Positions 1 to 17,274 of a stretch of 45,251 nucleotides of DNA are shown here, in pieces (the first letter of the stretch is position 1; each line of letters starts with the position of its first letter). Under the pieces are notes generated by a model. It worked only from the letters and a program-made list of their open reading frames with translations. It was not told the DNA's origin and searched no databases. This DNA is from a virus. Position numbers and translations under genes: made by a program. The stretch is from positions 1 through 45,251 of IMG/VR virus record IMGVR_UViG_3300027987_000080, one strand, 5' to 3'.

Positions 1-582
1 AGCAACGGTTGCGTGTTCATCCAGGACACCCCCGAAGGACGGGCGGGTCTGATTAACGACTACAACTGCCAGAAGGAGCTGTCAGAACTGTTTAAGGCTC
101 CCGGTATTGAAATCCACCAGTTAACCAACGGCCGGTTCATGTTCGATGGCTGCAAGTCCCTGACTGAGGCCCCCCGTGAGCTGCCAGCGTTAACCAACGG
201 CTATTGCATGTTCGATGGCTGCAAGTCCCTGACTCACGCACCCCGTGAGCTGCCGGCGTTAGTCGACGGCTTTTGCATGTTCCGCAGCTGCACGTCCCTG
301 ACTCGCACCCCCGGTGAGCTGCCAGCGTTGACCGACGGCACAGGGATGTTCTACAACTGCAAGTCCCTAACTCAAACCCCCCGTGAGCTGCCAGCGTTGA
401 CCGACGGCGTGCACATGTTCGAGGGCTGCACGTCGCTGACTGAGGGGCCCCGTGAGCTGCCAGCGTTAACCAACGGCGAGCAAATGTTCTACTACTGCAC
501 GTCCCTAACTCACACCCCACGTGAGATGCCGGCGTTAACCAACCGCCGGCACATGTTCCGCGGATGCGCTTCCCTTGTTTAA
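1..582 (+). CDS. BspA-type leucine-rich-repeat protein, 5' end missing (LRR copy 1)
   Basis: The reading frame is open from base 1, so the gene is cut by the window edge; the GTG at 13 is internal because the residues before it (SNGC) match the full-length paralogue at 8903. What is visible is a short N-terminal stretch (QDTPEGRAGLINDYNC), then seven 23-residue repeats with the pattern MF-x-x-C-x-S-LT-x-x-P-RE-LPAL-x-x-G, the last one partial. This matches Treponema/BspA-type LRRs, which form solenoids used for binding other proteins. No signal peptide can be judged because the start is absent. The stop overlaps the TTG candidate of the next gene. About 30 N-terminal residues are missing relative to the paralogue. 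Function unknown; a binding protein or decoy is inference. Confidence 0.8.
   Translation, partial: SNGCVFIQDTPEGRAGLINDYNCQKELSELFKAPGIEIHQLTNGRFMFDGCKSLTEAPRELPALTNGYCMFDGCKSLTHAPRELPALVDGFCMFRSCTSLTRTPGELPALTDGTGMFYNCKSLTQTPRELPALTDGVHMFEGCTSLTEGPRELPALTNGEQMFYYCTSLTHTPREMPALTNRRHMFRGCASLV
115..576 (+). repeat. Tandem 69-bp LRR-coding repeats, copy 1
   Basis: About six and a half direct repeats of 69 bp, each encoding one 23-residue LRR. The part encoding RELPAL is nearly invariant in DNA, including third codon positions, while codons either side of MF and before the conserved P vary. Bases 314-408 are identical to 9240-9334 in the other long LRR gene. Confidence 0.9.
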
Positions 583-4555: not shown

Positions 4556-4738
4556 ATGGCCACATTATTAAAACCCGCCGAGGTTGCCAAACGCCTCGAC
4601 ATCTCAAAGCGTAAAGTGTACTACCTCATCGCTCAGGGCGAGCTGCCCAGTCAGCGGCACCTCGTCACCGGTGCCGTACGCGTTACCTTATCCGATTTAA
4701 ACGACTATATCAGGACTCGAAAAGCCGCCAATGCTTGA
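4556..4738 (+). CDS. MerR/AlpA-type excisionase-like HTH protein
   Basis: A 60-residue helix-turn-helix protein of the HTH_17 (excisionase/AlpA) type: LLKPAEVAKRLDISKRKVYY, then LIAQGELP and V-x-L-x-DLNDYI. These small winged-helix proteins bind DNA as regulators or recombination directionality factors. The gene overlaps the primase-helicase start by eight bases, so its likely job is control of replication genes. No integrase is seen in the window, so an Xis role is not supported here. Confidence 0.8.
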   Translation: MATLLKPAEVAKRLDISKRKVYYLIAQGELPSQRHLVTGAVRVTLSDLNDYIRTRKAANA

Positions 4739-7196
4739 ACTCGCAGAACAACTGCGAGCTGTCGGCGTTTATTCTTTTCCATGCTGGGCCAAACACGACC
4801 CCGTTAAAAATAAATGGAGAAAAGGACCCTCGGTGCCTGCCGGGGAGCCCTGGCAGCTGTCCGCACTTCGCCCCGTCAACGACCCGCATTTTAATTGGGC
4901 GTCTGGCGTTATTGGGGTGCCGGTACCAGCGGACTTACTGGTACTCGATCTCGACAAGTACAAAGGCGCCACCCGTGAGGCGATCGATGCGGCTGTCGGC
5001 TGCGCCCTGCCCTGGGATCAAGCCTTCATACAGACCACCATCGGCGGGGGCGAACACTATGCGTTTAGATGCCGTTGGAAAGCCCGCCAGGGGGACTCAA
5101 TAGCCGGCGTGCCTGGCTTCGATACCAGGGCAGCCCTGCGCGGTTTCATATGCTCAGGGGCCGGCTACGCGCCCGTTAACCACGGCGGCGTGTTTGCCTT
5201 TGCCAGCCCCGAAGTACTGCCCGAACTGCCCGATGCCTGCCGCCGCTTGCTTGAAGTTGTAGACCAACCGCCGACCTCCAAAACCGAATATCAACCACGG
5301 GCCCAAGATGCGCAAATACTCGAAGCCTTGAGGCACATAGACCCGGGCTGCTCGCGCGATAAGTGGCGCAACATTGGATACGCGCTTAAGGCGCTGTACG
5401 CACAAGACGACATCGAAGGCCAAGCGGTTTTCGAGTCTTGGTCCTCCGGCGAGCTGTGGGATGGCGACCAACCGCACAACTACGTCAGCGACGGTAAGGG
5501 TTCTGTATCGGACCAGTGGCCGACCTTTAAAGCCGAGGGCGGTGTTAATCCGCAGACCCTTTTCTATTGGGCGATAGACGGCGGCTGGCGCCCGCCGCCT
5601 ACCGTCGACGCGGCCGAAGCCTTCTGTGCGGCGCCCGACCGCTTCGATACGCTTATTGACCAAATACGCAGGGACGGTGCGGACGTAAAAAAGACTGAAA
5701 ATATTATCGAAAGCATTAAGGCCGCCGGTTGTAGCCCGTTGCAGACCGCCCTGTTGGCCGCTGAGCTGAAGACGGAACTTAAGGGCGCGGGGATTAAAGA
5801 CAAAGCCATTGACGCGCATGTTGACCGGATCTTAAACAACCGTCAGGCAGACTTTACGCCAGCGGGTTTTTACGGCAAAAACGATACGGACAACGCGCTG
5901 ACTTTCTTAAATAAGTACTACCCCGAGGGCGCTTTAGCGCGATGTGACGGGGCCTTTTATCGTTTTGAGGGCCGCCACTGGTCTCGGCTTACAACGGACA
6001 CATTAAAACACCAAATAGCGGCCGACATGGCCCAACAACGCATGCAAGAGTCAAAAGTCAGCGCGTGCTTTAGAATGACAAATAACTTAACCCCCGTACT
6101 CGACGGACAGTTAAATTGTACTCCAGAGAATTTGGTGGTTTTTAACAACGGCGTGTTTGACTTAAACACCGGCGTTTTAAACCCACACGACCGGCGGTTA
6201 TTTACGACCAACATCTTGCCGTATGATTGGAATCCGTCGGCTACGTGCCCTCAGTGGCTGGAATTTTTGAACGACATATTCAGTAATGACTACGAACGTG
6301 TTGCGCTGTTGCAGGAGTGGCTGGGGTACCTATTGACGGGCAGCAACCTGCACGAAAAAATAATGATACTCCTTGGCGGCCCCGGCAGCGGTAAGGGCAC
6401 CATAGGCAAAGTGCTGGCCGCACTGGTCGGCGAACATAATTTCAGCGGCGGCAGCCTGTCAAAGCTGGTCGTAGACTCATATCTGGACGGACTCAGCGAA
6501 AAGCCCGTCGTTTTTATAGGTGATGCTGCCAAGAAAGTAAGCCCTGTAAAAATTCACGACGTGATTGAAACCCTAAAAGCCATAAGCGGTAACGACGCCC
6601 TGGGCTGGCATCGTATGTACCACGGCCTGGTAACTCGTGTACTCCCAACACGGTTCACTATTGCGGCCAACAGCGTCCCCTCGCTATTCGACGACTCCGG
6701 CGCCCTGGCTTCTCGAATGATGCTGTTGACGTTCGATAAGTCTTACCGCGGCACGGGAAAAGAAGATTTAACGCTAGTCGGTCGCCTGATTAATGAGATC
6801 GAAGGGATAGCCGCATGGGCTCTTGAGGGTGTCCGCCGGCTTAATCAAAACGGGCGGTTTACCAAACCCGCGGCCTGCGCGGAGGAGCATAACCTAATTG
6901 TGGAGGACTATTGCTCGGTTCAAAGATTTGTTAATGCGTGTTGTACGTTTGATCCTGCCGCCGAAACTTCAGGCCGCGAACTCTACGACGCCTACCGCTC
7001 TTGGGCTCTATCCGAAGGTGAAGACCCCGTGCGTCAACGTAGTCTGGTCAACGCCATACGGGACGCCTACCGCGGGCGCTCCGTGCGCTACGGGGTGCAC
7101 TGGGAGGGCGGCAAGAGTACCCGCGGGTTTCAAGGCCTGGCGGTACGCGCCGTGACCCCCTTCCAACCAAGAGTAATAACCAGCACAGGGAAATAA
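4731..7196 (+). CDS. Primase-helicase: Prim-Pol N-terminus and D5/P4-type SF3 helicase
   Basis: An 821-residue bifunctional replication protein. The N-terminal Prim-Pol domain shows the metal-binding DLD at residues 73-75 (VLDLDKYKG) and the partner motif TTIGGGEHY ending near residue 110, the usual archaeo-eukaryotic primase layout. A PriCT-like segment follows (IDPGCSRDKWRNIGYALKAL, about 205-225). The C-terminal half is a D5/P4-type helicase with Walker A GGPGSGKGT at 549-557, a VVFIGDAAK stretch near 585-600 and a sensor-like TIAANSVP. It would prime and unwind at the phage origin. The ATG at 4731 overlaps the HTH gene stop. A winged-helix region (RRFLNQ-type in P4) is likely at the C-terminus but not clearly visible. 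Confidence 0.9.
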   Translation: MLELAEQLRAVGVYSFPCWAKHDPVKNKWRKGPSVPAGEPWQLSALRPVNDPHFNWASGVIGVPVPADLLVLDLDKYKGATREAIDAAVGCALPWDQAFIQTTIGGGEHYAFRCRWKARQGDSIAGVPGFDTRAALRGFICSGAGYAPVNHGGVFAFASPEVLPELPDACRRLLEVVDQPPTSKTEYQPRAQDAQILEALRHIDPGCSRDKWRNIGYALKALYAQDDIEGQAVFESWSSGELWDGDQPHNYVSDGKGSVSDQWPTFKAEGGVNPQTLFYWAIDGGWRPPPTVDAAEAFCAAPDRFDTLIDQIRRDGADVKKTENIIESIKAAGCSPLQTALLAAELKTELKGAGIKDKAIDAHVDRILNNRQADFTPAGFYGKNDTDNALTFLNKYYPEGALARCDGAFYRFEGRHWSRLTTDTLKHQIAADMAQQRMQESKVSACFRMTNNLTPVLDGQLNCTPENLVVFNNGVFDLNTGVLNPHDRRLFTTNILPYDWNPSATCPQWLEFLNDIFSNDYERVALLQEWLGYLLTGSNLHEKIMILLGGPGSGKGTIGKVLAALVGEHNFSGGSLSKLVVDSYLDGLSEKPVVFIGDAAKKVSPVKIHDVIETLKAISGNDALGWHRMYHGLVTRVLPTRFTIAANSVPSLFDDSGALASRMMLLTFDKSYRGTGKEDLTLVGRLINEIEGIAAWALEGVRRLNQNGRFTKPAACAEEHNLIVEDYCSVQRFVNACCTFDPAAETSGRELYDAYRSWALSEGEDPVRQRSLVNAIRDAYRGRSVRYGVHWEGGKSTRGFQGLAVRAVTPFQPRVITSTGK

Positions 7197-7529: not shown

Positions 7530-7745
7530 ATGAGCAATAGCCTAGAATCCCTAACAGAAGAACTGATCGCGGCGCAAACCCGATTGAATTCGGGCCACAT
7601 GTCACACGCCGCCTACAAAACAATTGAACGTCGTATTATCCCCCAGCTCAAAGAGCTTAACCACCAACGCTACGGCCACGCAATGGGCCTCCGCAACGTC
7701 CGCCGCCTCCGCGAAATTCAGGCCATCGGCCGGGACGTCTTATGA
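7530..7745 (+). CDS. Hypothetical helical protein (71 aa)
   Basis: A basic, all-helical 71-residue protein starting at ATG 7530 with GGAGGTAAGAG upstream, a strong ribosome binding site. It ends overlapping the GGDEF gene start (four bases), so the two are probably co-translated. The segment EELIAAQTRLNSGHMSHAAYKT suggests a helical hairpin. No family recognised. Confidence 0.6.
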   Translation: MSNSLESLTEELIAAQTRLNSGHMSHAAYKTIERRIIPQLKELNHQRYGHAMGLRNVRRLREIQAIGRDVL

Positions 7746-8224
7746 AGCGCGAACTGCTCAGACGGCTTAAAAGCCTCAGTGATGCCGACCTTTACAAAGA
7801 GGTTTATACAGACCCGCTGACCGGCGCCCTAAACCGCCGGGCTTTTGATCTTCGAGACGGCGGCTATCTCGCCTTACTAGACCTGGATTCGCTTAAATAT
7901 ATCAATGATACCCTTGGGTACCGTTGGGGCGACAAGTTTTTAAAACGGACGGCGGGGTGTTTGATGACAGTTTTCGGCGACGACTCAGTTTATCGCCTCG
8001 GCGGGGATGAATTCGTCGTCGTATCAAAAGAAATCTGCGGTTTTACCCGCAAAATGATGGACTTGCAGAGCGTCCTACCCGTGTTTAGCTTCGGCATTGC
8101 GGCCTCTATGGGTATCGCGGATAAAAAGCTCAAAGAACAGAAGAAAGCCCGGGAGGCAAAAGGCTTGCGGGCCTCTACCGGCCAGGTGCCGCCGTGGATA
8201 GGGTCGGTATTATGCACGGCCTAA
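7742..8224 (+). CDS. Stand-alone minimal GGDEF domain protein (putative diguanylate cyclase)
   Basis: A 160-residue protein made almost only of a GGDEF domain. Visible motifs in order: DPLTGALNRRAF at 24-35, LDLDSLKYINDTLGYRWGD at 46-64 (metal and base-contacting D-x-D-x-x-K-x-x-ND), and RLGGDEF at 85-91 with the signature intact. The residue expected to be Arg in the RxxD inhibitory site is Phe, so feedback inhibition by c-di-GMP should be absent. The C-terminal part is compressed: the S-x-G-x-A strand runs straight into an ADKKLKEQKKAR helix. No sensor domain or membrane span. If active it would make c-di-GMP from two GTP in the host cytoplasm; activity depends on dimerisation. Confidence 0.85.
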   Translation: MKRELLRRLKSLSDADLYKEVYTDPLTGALNRRAFDLRDGGYLALLDLDSLKYINDTLGYRWGDKFLKRTAGCLMTVFGDDSVYRLGGDEFVVVSKEICGFTRKMMDLQSVLPVFSFGIAASMGIADKKLKEQKKAREAKGLRASTGQVPPWIGSVLCTA

Positions 8225-8902: not shown

Positions 8903-9721
8903 ATGAAATTAATCAAGATCAAGCACTACGTCGAGAACTCTTACGCGGGCAAACCCTCGTTCGTACTGGCCATGTCTGATGGTTACGACTACATCAGCAA
9001 CGGCTGTGTGTTCGTCCAGGACACCGCTGAAGGACGGGCGGGCCTCATTAACGACTACAACTGCCGGGATCGGCTGTCAGAGCTGTTTACGGCCCCCGGT
9101 ATTGAAATCCACCAGTTAACCAACGGCGCTTACATGTTCGACGGCTGCGAGGCCCTGACTGAGGCGCCCCGTGAGCTGCCAGCGTTAGTCGACGGCTATT
9201 GCATGTTCCGCCGCTGTACGTCCCTAACTCACACCCCCTGTGAGCTGCCAGCGTTGACCGACGGCACAGGGATGTTCTACAACTGCAAGTCCCTAACTCA
9301 AACCCCCCGTGAGCTGCCAGCGTTGACCGACGGCACGTGCATGTTCCGCGGCTGCGTGTTACTGACTGAGGCGCCCCGTGAGCTGCCAGCGTTAGTCGAC
9401 GGCGAGTGCATGTTCGATGGCTGCATGTCGCTGACTGCGGCCCCTCGCCAGCTGCCGGCGTTGACCTGCGGCTGTTGCATGTTCAAGGGCTGCACGTCGC
9501 TGACGCAGGCGCCCCGTGAGCTGCCGGCGTTAACCAACGGCACGTGCATGTTCCGCGGCTGCGTGTTACTGACTGAGGCGCCCCGTGAGCTGCCAGCGTT
9601 GACCGACGGCACAGGGATGTTCTACTACTGCACGTCCCTAACTCACACCCCCCGTGAGCTGCCAGCGTTGACCTGCGGCTATTGCATGTTCGATGGCTGC
9701 ACGTCCCTGACTGAGAACTAA
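8903..9721 (+). CDS. BspA-type leucine-rich-repeat protein, full length (LRR copy 3)
   Basis: The complete 272-residue member of the LRR family in this window. Residues 1-72 form a non-repeat N-terminal module (KHYVENSYAGKPSF, then VLAMSDGYDYIS) with no signal peptide, so the protein is probably cytoplasmic or on the virion. Nine 23-residue repeats follow, with the scaffold MF-x-x-C-x-x-LT-x-x-P-x-x-LPAL-x-x-G. The paired residues before MF (AY, YC, TG, TC, EC, CC) and after MF (DG, RR, YN, RG, KG, YY) vary. TpLRR solenoids usually present such positions on one face for binding. Bases 9330-9393 and 9537-9600 are identical, showing internal duplication. No cognate ligand is known. Confidence 0.85.
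   Translation: MKLIKIKHYVENSYAGKPSFVLAMSDGYDYISNGCVFVQDTAEGRAGLINDYNCRDRLSELFTAPGIEIHQLTNGAYMFDGCEALTEAPRELPALVDGYCMFRRCTSLTHTPCELPALTDGTGMFYNCKSLTQTPRELPALTDGTCMFRGCVLLTEAPRELPALVDGECMFDGCMSLTAAPRQLPALTCGCCMFKGCTSLTQAPRELPALTNGTCMFRGCVLLTEAPRELPALTDGTGMFYYCTSLTHTPRELPALTCGYCMFDGCTSLTEN
9107..9715 (+). repeat. Tandem 69-bp LRR-coding repeats, copy 3
   Basis: About nine direct 69-bp repeats. Bases 9240-9334 match 314-408 base for base (95 bp), and 9330-9393 match 9537-9600 (64 bp). Silent sites are as conserved as coding ones in the scaffold parts, which points to recent recombination rather than selection on protein alone. Confidence 0.9.
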
Positions 9722-10098: not shown

Positions 10099-10265
10099 CT
10101 CGTTTCGTATTTTGGTTTTGCGTTGTCTTAATACTTTGGCTGCTGGTTTCTCTGGCGGCAGCTTTTCTGATCGCCCGATATATTACGACAACGTTTTTAA
10201 AGCTTGAACACGAAGAGGGTCTGAGGGGTCCAGGGGGCACTCCCCGCAAACGATGGACTGTGTGA
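10008..10265 (+). CDS. Small membrane protein (85 aa)
   Basis: AGGGAAGG ends six bases before ATG 10008, a convincing ribosome binding site. The product has a strong transmembrane helix (FVFWFCVVLILWLLVSLAAA, about residues 33-52) and a short charged C-terminus. Its last 83 bases overlap, in antisense, the 3' end of the TetR-like gene. Unknown function. Confidence 0.5.
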   Translation: MQTARVVGAYGFFAILGAKLYRLGVPNRAVTRFVFWFCVVLILWLLVSLAAAFLIARYITTTFLKLEHEEGLRGPGGTPRKRWTV

Positions 10266-10464
10266 TTACAGGCCAATGCTTCTGGGCGATCGCATGCTCG
10301 ACCAATTCACGACGAAAACCTTCCATACCTTCAAAGTGGTGATTCAAAAGGGGGCCTGTAACTCCGGCTGCTACGCCTATTTGCTCCCGAGTTAAGTTTT
10401 TATAGCCTTGTTTTTCAGACAGAACCAGGGCTGCGTCAAGCATTTGTGTACGTCGGTTTTTCAT
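10183..10464 (-). CDS. TetR-type HTH mini-regulator without ligand domain
   Basis: A 93-residue protein consisting of a TetR N-terminal DNA-binding domain: TQMLDAALVLSEKQGYKNL, then TREQIGVAAGVTGPLLNHHF. Normal TetR regulators are about 200 residues with an effector and dimerisation domain, which is missing here; short phage versions of this form exist. ATG 10464 overlaps the VRR-NUC stop by four bases, placing it last in the leftward helicase operon. It is probably a constitutive or phage-partnered regulator. Its 3' end overlaps a rightward gene in antisense. Confidence 0.75.
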   Translation of the reverse strand: MKNRRTQMLDAALVLSEKQGYKNLTREQIGVAAGVTGPLLNHHFEGMEGFRRELVEHAIAQKHWPVITQSIVCGECPLDPSDPLRVQALKTLS

Positions 10465-10967: not shown

Positions 10968-11488
10968 CGTATTAGCTCCGGTCGGTGTTTCAGCAGTCGT
11001 TCTGCCTGTGTTAGCGCATCGTGCAAGGCGTGGTGATGGGCCCCTGTGCGATTGCTGTCATCGAACCGAAGCCCCGCCATGGCCGTGCGATAACAGCGGT
11101 TATTATAGAACTTCCAAGGCGCTTCGCGGCCGCATAGTGAATACGCGTTTTCCAAGATAGCGTTATCAAAATTCGCACCGTTGCCCCATACCTTTGGTTC
11201 AGAAAGGGTGTAAATAAAATTTGAAAATTGTCTAAGGGCCTCTTGTATCGGTACGGCCGACGGGTCATTAAAAACTTGGCGTGCTTCCTTTGATTGACGT
11301 TGCCACCAGGCTATGGTGCTGGCGCTTTCTGTAAGCCCTAAATCTTTGCAGCTTTGATAATCTACGGCGGTATAGAACGTTTTACCAGCGGCCGGCCCCT
11401 TAAAGACCCCGGCACCGATTGAAAGTATCCCCGCCGTGGCCACCGTGTGGGTGGTTTCTAAGTCCACCATTACGTGATCATCATTCAT
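10964..11488 (-). CDS. DEDDh 3'-5' exonuclease (Rv2179c / RNase T-like)
   Basis: A 174-residue exonuclease of the DnaQ-like fold. The three Exo motifs are visible: MVDLET with D9 and E11, WGNGANFDNAIL with D108, and HHHALHDALTQA with the His of Exo III (H152) and D157. The length and the SIGAGVFKGPA strand fit the Rv2179c-like group (PF16473), which trims 3' overhangs of RNA or DNA. It lies between the helicase and VRR-NUC with four-base overlaps, so it likely acts with them. Confidence 0.87.
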   Translation of the reverse strand: MNDDHVMVDLETTHTVATAGILSIGAGVFKGPAAGKTFYTAVDYQSCKDLGLTESASTIAWWQRQSKEARQVFNDPSAVPIQEALRQFSNFIYTLSEPKVWGNGANFDNAILENAYSLCGREAPWKFYNNRCYRTAMAGLRFDDSNRTGAHHHALHDALTQAERLLKHRPELIR

Positions 11489-14238
11489 TGTATTAAGTCC
11501 TCGTTAAAACGTTGTGTGATTTTGTCGATTAGCGCTTCGGTTTCGCGCAGTTTAAGTGTAAAAGCCGTCCCGATATCGATGCCAAAGCGCAAATAAAAAC
11601 GTCGGTGCACTTCTGATAGCTCGCGATGCGATTGCAGCCCGACCCACCAGCCGACTAAGTTGCGCAGTACCTCCCGTTGGGCCTTGGTGTCGATGTGCCT
11701 GCGCAAGTCTTTGTTACGTCCGATCGACGGGATGCCACGACGTATTTGATCCCGCTTGTAGTCGTCGATTGACATATCGGCGCGGTCCATCCGCTCAAAC
11801 AGTGCGGCCATGGCGTCAACGTCGAGTTCAAATAAGTCACCGTCTACCTGTTCCGGTGCCGATCGGCCGCCGGTCACGGGGCGCGGTTCGCCGCAGTAGG
11901 GGCAGGCCTTGTAGTATCGTTCAAACGGTTGGGTACACGCCGTGCAGATAGTTTGCGGCGTCATCCCGTCCTGCTTGCTACGGCTGCCTTTCTCCACCCC
12001 GGCCAGGGACCATACCCGCGGCCAGTTGGGCATGCCGTGGCGCTCCCAATTGCGGACGGGGTCAATAACGATAGCATATGGCTTAGGCCCGGCAGCCATG
12101 GCCGCCAGACGGCCTTCAACCGTGTCAAGGTCAAAACCTTTTGCGTATACCGGGCGAAGTGCTCGGCCGATCATTTGCAGATCCTTAGCCAACGATTCAG
12201 TTTTGCGGGCAAGTAAGACGGCCTCGACTTCGGGCACGTCGAAGCCCTCATCGAACAGATCGACGTTTATCAACACCGTCACCGCGCCCTCTTCAAACGC
12301 GTCAAGCGTCCGGTCTCTTACGTCCGGGTCAGTCTCTCCACTGAGGGCGGCCGCAGTCACTCCCGACGCTTTGAAGTCATTCGCCACTTCGTGTGCAGTC
12401 TCTACGTCATTGGCGAACACCAGGGCTTTTTTACCGGCGGCAAACTGCTGATACTGTGCTACAACATCGCCGACAAAATCCGATGCTACGATGCGTTTGC
12501 GCATAACTCTGGTATTGAGTTCGCCGCTTGCCGTAATCGGGATGTCTGACAGATTTAAGTCAGTGGACGGCGCACAGTACTTAAACCGGCAAAGGTAGCC
12601 CTCCTCAATCAGCTGTTTAGTGCTGGGCCCCTCGACGATAATTTCAGCAAACCCGTCGTGCCCTCTGCCCAGCCCTTTGCCGTCGGCCCGTTCGGGGGTC
12701 GCGGTCATAAATAGTTTTACACCACGTGACAGCATGTGGACTGCTTTAGACCAAACGCCCTGCTCAACATAGTGGTGGCCCTCATCGAATACCGATAGGG
12801 TTACCTGATAGACCCACTGCTGCAGCTCTTTATTGGTGTCGCTGGCTTTACTGGTCAACGTCTGGACCGACACCACCCCCACCGGAGCCTGTGGGTCAAC
12901 AAACGATTTGCCGAATTTCTTTAAATGCTTTCGCCGTATTCGGGTGATGACTTGCGGCGGTGCTATGATGCGATGATGCACGCCCAACAGCGCCAGGGCT
13001 ACGCTTATTTGCCCGAGTATTTCTTTGCGATGTACGACCGCCGCCGCCGCGCCTTTGTGGTTGTGCACGATCGAGGCAAAGCACACGGTATTATGCGTAA
13101 CCGTGAAGTCGCCCAACAGGAACAAATGGTCGCCGTCTATCTCAAATCCGTAGTACTCGCCCTCCCCTACTGGGTCTACTGAAATTCCGGTAACTAACGG
13201 CGACTTTATTTGTGTACGAATAGGCGCTTTTTTCCTCCGCACTTTAACCGGTACCACCGACAAATCCCCGCTAATAGAAACGCGGTAGTACAACCCTTCT
13301 TTGCCTGTGTTGCCGCAAGTCTTACGGGCGTCTGAAACGTACGCTGCGAAGCCTAAAGAACGGCACAAATAAGCCACGTCTTGGGCTAATTTTTTTTCCT
13401 TTGATATGTAGTCATAACCTGCCCGGGATAAGGACCCGTCTGAATCGATAAGCCCTGCGAGGAGGCTTAGGCGGGACGCCCGATCCGTGGCTTTGTACTC
13501 CAACGGAACGTGTTTGTTGCATAGTAAATTATGCTTATACAAGGCCCCTTTTACCCCCGCTCGCCATTTACCTCTAGCGCTGAAATGGTACGTTTTAGCT
13601 GCGTTATTTGACGAAAGGGTTTCAGTGCGTAAAGGAAGGTCGTGTATGCCGGCGTGGGTTTTTAAATACTCGACTATTTCTCCGTCGGCCGTTGTAATTG
13701 CGGCGGTACGGGAGCTGCCGTCCCCCAGCCAAAGGCCCAATAGATAGGGCGGCAATAACGGGTCCACCTCGGCCGCAGGCCAGTCTACCCCGGTCCTCCA
13801 GCCCTTATGGGTGTGGCGAAAGTTGCGTGACGATTCGTAAAAGTCTTTAACATTTACGTTTTTAACCGTCCCCTTTCCGGTTTGACATGGGTAACGTGGT
13901 TCGGACTTTAGGCCGGTTTGCTTTAGACTGAGTATATGACTCTCGTTAACTGTATACGGGTCTCCTTTAACCGGGGTGACACGGTACATCATTTCACGGC
14001 CGGAGCACGTCGATATCACTCGTCGGGGGGCGCTATCGGGGCCCATTAATAAGTCCCCTTTGCGAATATCCTCTACGACTTTTACCGTACCGTCAAACAT
14101 TAAAACGGGGGTACCCTTAGCAAGGCACTTACCTCCGCCTGTAGGGAGCACGCCCAGGACTGACGTAAACTGCGCCCAAGCGTCGTAAATCGCAGCAATA
14201 AAAGCCTCTTGATAGTCGCGAAGTTTAATCACTTTCAT
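11485..14238 (-). CDS. SF2 DEAD/DEAH-type helicase precursor interrupted by an intein
   Basis: A 917-residue precursor; removing the intein (residues 38-383) leaves a 571-residue ResIII-type SF2 helicase. Extein motifs: Walker A PTGGGK joined to T, motif Ia region VVHRKEILGQI, motif II DEGHH (SVFDEGHHYVEQGVW), motif III MTATPER, motif V INVDLFDEGFDVPE, and motif VI QMIGRALRP. A zinc-knuckle CTACTQPFERYYKACPYCGEP follows, then a helical C-terminal domain. It would unwind or remodel DNA with the downstream nucleases. The precursor cannot bind ATP before splicing because the intein separates GGGK from its Thr. It is the first gene of the leftward operon, reading away from the 14246 promoter region. 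Confidence 0.9.
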   Translation of the reverse strand: MKVIKLRDYQEAFIAAIYDAWAQFTSVLGVLPTGGGKCLAKGTPVLMFDGTVKVVEDIRKGDLLMGPDSAPRRVISTCSGREMMYRVTPVKGDPYTVNESHILSLKQTGLKSEPRYPCQTGKGTVKNVNVKDFYESSRNFRHTHKGWRTGVDWPAAEVDPLLPPYLLGLWLGDGSSRTAAITTADGEIVEYLKTHAGIHDLPLRTETLSSNNAAKTYHFSARGKWRAGVKGALYKHNLLCNKHVPLEYKATDRASRLSLLAGLIDSDGSLSRAGYDYISKEKKLAQDVAYLCRSLGFAAYVSDARKTCGNTGKEGLYYRVSISGDLSVVPVKVRRKKAPIRTQIKSPLVTGISVDPVGEGEYYGFEIDGDHLFLLGDFTVTHNTVCFASIVHNHKGAAAAVVHRKEILGQISVALALLGVHHRIIAPPQVITRIRRKHLKKFGKSFVDPQAPVGVVSVQTLTSKASDTNKELQQWVYQVTLSVFDEGHHYVEQGVWSKAVHMLSRGVKLFMTATPERADGKGLGRGHDGFAEIIVEGPSTKQLIEEGYLCRFKYCAPSTDLNLSDIPITASGELNTRVMRKRIVASDFVGDVVAQYQQFAAGKKALVFANDVETAHEVANDFKASGVTAAALSGETDPDVRDRTLDAFEEGAVTVLINVDLFDEGFDVPEVEAVLLARKTESLAKDLQMIGRALRPVYAKGFDLDTVEGRLAAMAAGPKPYAIVIDPVRNWERHGMPNWPRVWSLAGVEKGSRSKQDGMTPQTICTACTQPFERYYKACPYCGEPRPVTGGRSAPEQVDGDLFELDVDAMAALFERMDRADMSIDDYKRDQIRRGIPSIGRNKDLRRHIDTKAQREVLRNLVGWWVGLQSHRELSEVHRRFYLRFGIDIGTAFTLKLRETEALIDKITQRFNEDLIQ
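13090..14127 (-). mobile_element. Intein with LAGLIDADG homing endonuclease in the helicase P-loop
   Basis: A 346-residue in-frame insertion. It begins with Cys (CLAKGTPVLMFDG, block A), has block B around PYTVNESHILSL, and two dodecapeptide-type endonuclease motifs (LLGLWLGDGSS, about 166-176, and LLAGLIDSDGSL, about 259-270). It ends with block F (EYYGFEIDGDHLFLL) and block G VTHN, with Thr as +1 extein residue. All key splicing residues (Cys1, block B His, penultimate His, terminal Asn, Thr+1) are present, so self-splicing is expected. The insertion point GGGK/T is a preferred intein site in P-loop ATPases. Confidence 0.95.
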
Positions 14239-16113: not shown

Positions 16114-16999
16114 TGATGACGTATTGGTAATCAACAACTGCCGCGTGGTCTACGACGGTATTTCATCCCCTGAAATGGTTAAAGGCAAGGATGGCAATTT
16201 TCAAAAATTTAAATTGAAAGTTGTTACCGAGCCGAATAATCCGGACGTTCAACTGTTGGAACAACTGGGCAAGAAAGCTTTGCACCAATCCGCAGTTTTC
16301 AACGGCACGTTGCCCCCGGGCGCCTACTGGCTAACCAAACAAGTGCCGCCAGGAAAGTATAACGATTTATTCCCCGGTTTCGTTTCGATTAATGCCATTA
16401 CTTACAGAATGCCGCAAGTAATCGATGAAAATATACAACCTATTGCACCGATGATGATCGGGCAGCTGCTGTATCAAGGGCAGATTGTAAACTTAGCGGT
16501 AAAAGCCAAAGAGTACAACGAAGTTTCGCAAGGTATAAAAGCCGAGCTTCACATTATTCAAGTCGTGACGTCGGCTAACGCCCCCCAACTATCCCTTGGC
16601 GGAGTTGATGCGGCAAGCGTGTTCGGCGGCCAACAGCCACAGCAGCCGGCTTACGGCCAACAGCCACAGCAGCCGGCTTACGGCCAACAGCCACAGCAGC
16701 CGGCTTACGGCCAACAGCCACAGCAGCCAGCTTACGGCCAACCGCAACAGCCACAGCAGCCAGCTTACGGCCAACCGCAACAGCAGCCGGCTTACGGCCA
16801 ACCGCAACAGCCACAGCAACCGGCTTACGGCCAACCGCAACAGCCACAGCCCGGAGGTACGCCAAACGGCGGCGTAAACCCTACTGCAGCTGCGGGGAAC
16901 CCTTACGGACAGCCGACGAACGACGGTACGGGGTCTGCCAATTCTGCGACGACATACCCTTCTAACCAAGCGCAAAACTTTTTACCCCCAAGGACTTAA
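16100..16999 (+). CDS. Enc34-type ssDNA-binding protein (DUF2815) with QQPAYG repeat tail
   Basis: The frame is open from 16064, but ATG 16100 is preferred because AGAGGA lies nine bases before it. Residues 1-170 match the DUF2815/Enc34 SSB group: NNCRVVYDGISSPEMVKGKD, then F-K-L-K-VV, and a central LPPGAYWLTKQVPPGKYNDL; the fold is an OB-barrel. Residues about 177-251 are an unusual low-complexity tail with seven PAYG units separated by Gln/Pro, then an NGGVNPTAAAGNPYG stretch. It has no acidic D-D-x-PF tip like bacterial SSB. It coats ssDNA during replication; the tail may mediate self-association. A terminator follows. Confidence 0.85.
   Translation: MPMSNDDVLVINNCRVVYDGISSPEMVKGKDGNFQKFKLKVVTEPNNPDVQLLEQLGKKALHQSAVFNGTLPPGAYWLTKQVPPGKYNDLFPGFVSINAITYRMPQVIDENIQPIAPMMIGQLLYQGQIVNLAVKAKEYNEVSQGIKAELHIIQVVTSANAPQLSLGGVDAASVFGGQQPQQPAYGQQPQQPAYGQQPQQPAYGQQPQQPAYGQPQQPQQPAYGQPQQQPAYGQPQQPQQPAYGQPQQPQPGGTPNGGVNPTAAAGNPYGQPTNDGTGSANSATTYPSNQAQNFLPPRT
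16629..16852 (+). repeat. 27-bp tandem repeats encoding QQPQQPAYG
   Basis: Four near-perfect 27-bp copies, followed by three variants of 33, 27 and 33 bp, all within the SSB gene. The repeats are in frame and encode Gln/Pro/Tyr-rich units. Copy number could change by slippage without breaking the frame. Confidence 0.9.
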
Positions 17000-17046: not shown

Positions 17047-17064
17047 AACTAAGGGCGATTAAAA

Positions 17065-17274
17065 ATGAAAACGCTATTAATTCTAAAATGGGTTCTGTGC
17101 CTGGCCTTACTCGCGGTGTTCTGTGTTGCCGCCGGCCCTTTGTTCTTTTGTTTAATGCTGATAAACGGCCAGGAGACGCGGGACTACTCAGACTTCATGG
17201 GCAAATATCTCGCCCACACATGTCGTGAGGACTTTCGACGACTGCAGATAAAACAGCAGGGGGCGATACGGTAG
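17065..17274 (+). CDS. Small membrane protein (69 aa)
   Basis: Begins at ATG 17065 with TAAGGGCG upstream. It has one or two hydrophobic segments (LILKWVLCLALLAVFCVAAG and PLFFCLMLI) and a charged C-terminal tail, so it is an inner-membrane protein. One base separates its stop from the next ATG. Function unknown. Confidence 0.55.
   Translation: MKTLLILKWVLCLALLAVFCVAAGPLFFCLMLINGQETRDYSDFMGKYLAHTCREDFRRLQIKQQGAIR

Follow-up and report, generated by a model that had tools for sequence, protein, structure and literature searches.

A family of capped leucine-rich-repeat proteins in phages, with traces of repeat-unit exchange between paralogues

Organization of the locus

The window, i.e. the whole 45,251-nucleotide stretch of viral DNA analysed here (IMG/VR record IMGVR_UViG_3300027987_000080), encodes three related genes whose features are collected in Table 1. 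In gene 3, nine leucine-rich repeats (LRRs) of 23 residues (69 bp) come after an N-terminal module of ~75 residues. Analysis with Tandem Repeats Finder recovered the 69-bp period in 8.7 copies with a score of 558 and a 207-bp (3-unit) super-period with a score of 733; these scores are far above chance, and both the open reading frame and its repeat periodicity are real. The same 69-bp array is found in gene 1 (120-558, score 428), which has the N-terminal module from residue 32 onwards, the start of the contig falling inside the module. In gene 2 the module is present at only 36% identity. The preliminary description had proposed that one N-terminal module is common to all three genes, and this is borne out; its view of them as a three-gene repeat family holds for the module but only in part for the repeats, which are few and degenerate in gene 2. 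Directly 3' of gene 1 lies a gene for a Fis-family HTH protein (HTH_8, E=3.8e-6; 575-901, + strand).

Table 1. Features of the capped LRR genes in the window
Feature	Coordinates	Strand	Remarks
Gene 1, paralogue with seven repeats	1..582	+	5'-truncated by contig end (lacks ~31 residues at the N-terminus)
Gene 2, short divergent paralogue, 126 aa	2474..2854	+	about 2.5 degenerate repeats
Gene 3, 272-aa LRR protein (N-terminal module and nine 23-aa repeats)	8903..9721	+	ORF with ATG start
Gene 3 N-terminal module	8903..9130	+	common to 8 virus records; AlphaFold pLDDT 94.9
Gene 3 repeat array, 69-bp units, 207-bp higher-order period	9115..9715	+	Tandem Repeats Finder, unit table
95-bp stretch identical to 9240-9334	314..408	+	gene 1; donor or recipient in unit exchange
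95-bp stretch identical to 314-408	9240..9334	+	gene 3; exactly one 69-bp unit off colinear register
64-bp exact internal duplicate of 9537-9600	9330..9393	+	gene 3; distance 207 bp, three units

Repeat type, fold and the N-terminal cap

The complete units of genes 1 and 3 define the consensus M-F-x-x-C-x-x-L-T-x-x-P-x-x-L-P-A-L-x-x-G-x-x. Nine of its positions (M1, F2, C5, L8, T9, P12, P16, A17 and L18) are invariant in 14/14 complete units, while L15 and G21 are each replaced in a single unit of gene 1, so that the scaffold of MF, C, LT, P and LPAL-x-x-G formerly described as exactly fixed stands except at these two residues. Entropy in the same 14 units is highest at positions 22, 3, 10, 6, 4, 23 and 20, in agreement with the pairs of variable residues that had been noted before and after MF and before P, to which positions 6 and 20 are to be added.

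Sequence profile analysis recovered the NCBIfam model TIGR02167 (Liste_lipo_26) with 43.5 bits for gene 1 and 38.8 bits for gene 3, both above the cut-off of 30. The Pfam model PF13306 (LRR_5) scored just below its gathering score of 27.7 in the window genes (gene 3, E=6.7e-6, 26.5 bits; gene 1, 27.5 bits) and above it in relatives (40.8 bits in HNL01 and 44.7 bits in G005). The closest solved structure by sequence is 4fs7, with the F-x-x-C-x-x-L scaffold in register, and an AlphaFold model computed from seven family members (mean pLDDT 85.5) has the TpLRR structure 6mlx as its best fold match in the PDB, which upholds the LRR solenoid proposed from the pattern alone. A comparison with viral structure models gave phage BspA-type LRR proteins as the top matches, and many phage matches in BFVD bear surface-protein names. 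The repeats are of the known BspA/TpLRR type and score above the cut-off of TIGR02167; therefore, their fold is known.

The N-terminal module, with the consensus MKxxxIxHYVExSFxxKPSFxxxMSDGxxYISNGCxF..., is modelled with three to four beta strands and two helices capping the solenoid. Scans of Pfam, NCBIfam and PHROGs gave no matching model for it, and a search of its predicted fold against the PDB returned nothing at E<=0.001, the best match having E=0.39.

Distribution of the cap module

A profile search with an alignment of the N-terminal module recovered eight virus records, namely the window (3 copies), the IMG/VR contigs behind loci L009 (2), L010 (1), L011 (2, one of them cut by the contig end), L012 (1) and L022/L024 (3, from four matches, two of which were taken as one gene across contig ends that overlap by ~110 bp), and the Vibrio phages HNL01 (2) and 1.081.O (2). 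Possession of several copies is the usual state, with three in the window and 2-3 in five other records. When scanned directly against viral contigs the gene 3 protein gave no match, the relatives being found with the module alignment, and follow-up scans with five single proteins yielded no further contig. Matches on plasmids were to the LRR region and none was to the cap. The single match in a cellular genome, a Thiotrichaceae MAG, was rejected as a cellular copy, for it is a CRISPR spacer and not a gene. Within the searched collections the cap module thus appears to be found only in phages. The family is rare, at eight records, and therefore not a general requirement.

In the two isolated Vibrio phages the proteins KUA24_4 and KUA24_23 (HNL01) and NVP1081O_226 and _228 (1.081.O) show the same order of N-terminal module and then LRRs, in two copies per phage, and all four are annotated as 'hypothetical protein'. 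Their identity to the window proteins is 27-45%, and the repeats of the 1.081.O proteins are few and degenerate.

The carriers belong to at least four unrelated lineages. The window phage is a myovirus with a sheath, Mu-like baseplate proteins and a phrog_29 head protein; L009 and L012 have phrog_283 head proteins; 1.081.O is a Schizotequatrovirus (Straboviridae); and HNL01, a phage of 111.8 kb, is unclassified, an assignment as T5-like having been dropped because the record carries no classification and has a 383-bp terminal repeat. What L009 and the window have in common over the 9.9 kb compared is limited to the LRR genes, which reach 77% identity across 133 aa, and a single small ORF. Given the unrelated carriers and how little L009 and the window share beyond these genes, horizontal transfer of capped LRR genes between unrelated phages is well supported. 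The small ORF (window 17053-17256, + strand; L009 2578-2784, directly behind the LRR genes) encodes a protein of 68 aa, probably a membrane protein, with 75% identity between these otherwise unrelated phages. Directly upstream of the LRR gene of L010 are two adjacent genes (17-469 and 501-1271) for proteins of ~28-aa repeats (FAKDVPGADxQALQxRVLExGxxWxCY), for which Pfam and NCBIfam gave no convincing match and phage records none.

The spacer lies in contig NVTY02000032.1 (L013) of the Thiotrichaceae MAG, in a CRISPR array where a 36-bp repeat recurs 38 times without change. The spacer at 1439-1474, 36 nt long, translates to GVDYISNGCVFR, which matches the N-terminal module and shares 10/11 residues with L012, L009 and the window. 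The pattern had ~20 matches in the genome collection, roughly the number expected by chance, and the chance that one of them falls in a spacer is estimated at roughly 1% if spacers are assumed to make up ~0.05% of the DNA. Other spacers of the array had no match to the loci compared. The spacer is suggestive of phages with the cap module infecting Thiotrichaceae-like bacteria.

Repeat-unit exchange, variation and selection

Between genes 1 and 3, 14% of the bases in the N-terminal modules differ. At that divergence a run of 95 identical bases, such as the two genes share one unit out of register, has a probability of about 8e-7 per site without recent copying, and because of this improbability the run is a trace of such copying. 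Together with the exact duplicate within gene 3, it shows that units have recently recombined or been exchanged unequally, both from one paralogue to another and inside the arrays, and the earlier suggestion that the family evolves by swapping repeat units finds direct support in it.

By counting methods, pN/pS in genes 1 and 3 is 1.26-1.33 at variable codons and 0.23-0.39 at scaffold codons. The set of variable codons was chosen on these two genes, for which the relatives serve as an independent check; the contrast recurs in them, with a scaffold pN/pS of 0.10-0.51 in every member. A codon model gave an omega of 0.28 for the scaffold, differing from 1 by 6.0 log-likelihood units, and the scaffold codons are clearly under purifying selection. 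For the variable codons the same model gave an omega of 1.73, which is not significantly above 1, as fixing omega=1 costs 0.39 log-likelihood units; these positions change fast at a rate compatible with an omega of 1, and positive selection is statistically unsupported.

Entropy per position in the window genes correlates with that in each of the diverged sets (Spearman 0.49-0.76, p 0.02 to 2e-5). Positions 3, 20, 22 and 23 are variable in every set, and position 10 is fixed in HNL01. Distant relatives thus vary largely at the same positions. Invariant repeats in relatives, which the preliminary description had named as evidence against its reading, do occur in part: the units of L011 are nearly identical and gene b of HNL01 also holds near-identical repeats, both of which are best read as fresh duplications. 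The number of repeats in the family ranges from about 2 to 9. Positions 20-23, 3, 4 and 6 adjoin one another in the sequence on either side of the buried MF; from this and from their polarity, the variable residues should form a stripe along the solenoid. A diversity-generating retroelement was considered as the source of the variation: the variable codons of genes 1 and 3 differ at all bases and not only at A, and no reverse transcriptase was present among the window proteins scanned, which included part of the small ORFs.

Genomic context

On the + strand of the window, genes 1-3 lie within the primase-helicase block (primase-helicase, 4731-7196), while the head and tail genes occupy 24-45 kb on the opposite, - strand, with the tail genes at 24-33 kb. 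In HNL01 the copies are surrounded by small hypothetical genes, no more than ~11 kb from the genome end, and come before the nuclease, primase-helicase and polymerase; those of L009 precede the terminase, that of L012 points away from the late genes, and those of 1.081.O are outside the structural genes. Wherever the context was readable, no family gene lay in a late gene block, and inspection by eye revealed no hydrophobic N-terminal segment. Because of this gene order and the absence of a visible signal peptide, the proteins are probably expressed early and located in the cytosol.

Several other genes of the window deserve mention. Within the early block near gene 3, a 160-aa GGDEF-domain protein (7742-8224, + strand; E=8.9e-14) with an intact RLGGDEF motif is a phage-encoded diguanylate-cyclase-like protein. 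A 93-aa protein (10183-10464, - strand) consists of a TetR-type N-terminal HTH only, without the ligand domain. An intein carrying Hint and LAGLIDADG homing endonuclease domains splits the P-loop of a helicase (ResIII/Helicase_C; 11485-14238, - strand). The C-terminal part of a gene for an Enc34-type ssDNA-binding protein contains a Q/P/A/Y/G-rich tandem repeat (27/60 bp; 16627-16844).

Functional interpretation

The reading that we tentatively favour, although we place it a little short of an even chance, is that these proteins act early in the cytosol as phage adaptors or inhibitors, binding host proteins in the service of takeover or counter-defence. A conserved ~75-aa alpha/beta cap followed by 2-9 BspA/TpLRR-type repeats of 23 residues makes up a small, probably cytosolic and probably early protein, of which phages keep one to three paralogues and which spreads between unrelated phages. 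Its repeat units are gained, lost and swapped from one paralogue to another through homologous recombination; purifying selection holds the scaffold codons, and a predicted polar stripe beside the MFxxC turn, whose positions change fast, is free, or favoured, to change. Host proteins might then be bound and either blocked or redirected, and altered repeats might lead to altered binding partners. Protein binding, host factors as the partners and the purpose of takeover or counter-defence are each conjectural steps here, and it is the position of the genes that points to an anti-defence or takeover role; PADLOC gave no match to a defence protein, and no homologue of a known inhibitor was found. 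An extension that we regard as unlikely, drawn by analogy, would see in the paralogues a phage-borne intracellular recognition repertoire, swapping repeats for new specificities against changing host defence proteins.

The main rival, which we consider rather unlikely, is near-neutral turnover, whereby a useful or dispensable cap protein would carry a stable LRR stalk with merely unconstrained surface positions, and gain, loss and exchange of units would be by-products of tandem repeats in DNA. This would agree with the omega of the variable codons, with a repeat number that varies freely and with the degenerate look of gene 2; however, purifying selection acts on the scaffold of all members, variability per position correlates between diverged phages, and most records keep their paralogues. 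A role in the virion or in adsorption, with the LRRs as a receptor-binding or decoration surface, appears improbable. Many bacterial BspA-type LRR proteins are surface adhesins, and many of the BFVD phage matches are named as surface proteins, but the genes stand in the replication or early strand block apart from the tail genes, their products are without a tail-anchor domain, and the module occurs in the terminal small-ORF region of HNL01 and outside the structural genes of a Straboviridae genome.

Slightly more improbable still is a factor in competition between phages (superinfection exclusion), which the infected cell would produce against proteins of rival phages. Multi-copy accessory genes common to unrelated phages would suit such a function, as would the small ORF shared by L009 and the window, but there is no direct link to it, and the window yielded no identifiable lysogeny module. 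A last alternative, which we consider very improbable, is that the repeats are a PARCEL element, a selfish palindromic sequence that codes for repeats and has been inserted into phage genes. PARCEL is defined by a 25-residue repeat and palindromic (dyad-symmetric) coding DNA, and its authors equate their motif with TIGR02167 (PMC2996958). Its conserved hydrophobic scaffold with variable hydrophilic positions, its multiple copies and its horizontal spread (PMC2996958) are all matched in the window family, as is the TIGR02167 score; the sporadic horizontal distribution and antisense ORFs that overlap the repeat array also speak for it. Yet the period of the window genes is 23 and not 25 residues, dyad symmetry is absent from the repeat unit of genes 1 and 3 (p 0.69-0.85; only L011 is marginal, with p about 0.04), and gene 3 contains no inverted repeat of >=10 bp. 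On period and palindromy the identity with PARCEL was rejected.

If the favoured reading of host-factor binding were true, the family would constitute a natural phage system that reshuffles LRR units between gene copies to alter binding, and a compact set of candidates for counter-defence or host takeover, including the four proteins of HNL01 and 1.081.O. As these belong to isolated Vibrio phages, the host-binding idea is testable at once. Even otherwise, the present analysis defines an unannotated family of phage proteins with a new cap domain.

Comparison with known systems

With the BspA/TpLRR proteins (LRR_5; 4fs7, 6mlx) the window family has in common the 23-residue period, the AF/MF-xx-C-xx-L scaffold and the LRR fold, whereas its members are small, phage-encoded, devoid of a visible signal peptide and furnished with a distinct N-terminal cap. 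That phages encode LRR proteins is already known from the jumbo phage vB_VhaM_pir03, which has PARCEL and BspA-annotated ORFs (PMC7765460). This too is a Vibrio phage with LRR/DUF285 repeats, but its ORFs are very large (3.7 and 19 kb) and assigned to DUF285 (PMC7765460). The recognition repertoire considered above would be analogous to variable LRR immune receptors, though on the side of the virus. The repeat being of the known BspA/TIGR02167 type, to call the locus an undescribed system, as was done at the outset, is too strong; what appears undescribed is the phage-specific cap family, its sets of paralogues and the direct trace of unit exchange between them.
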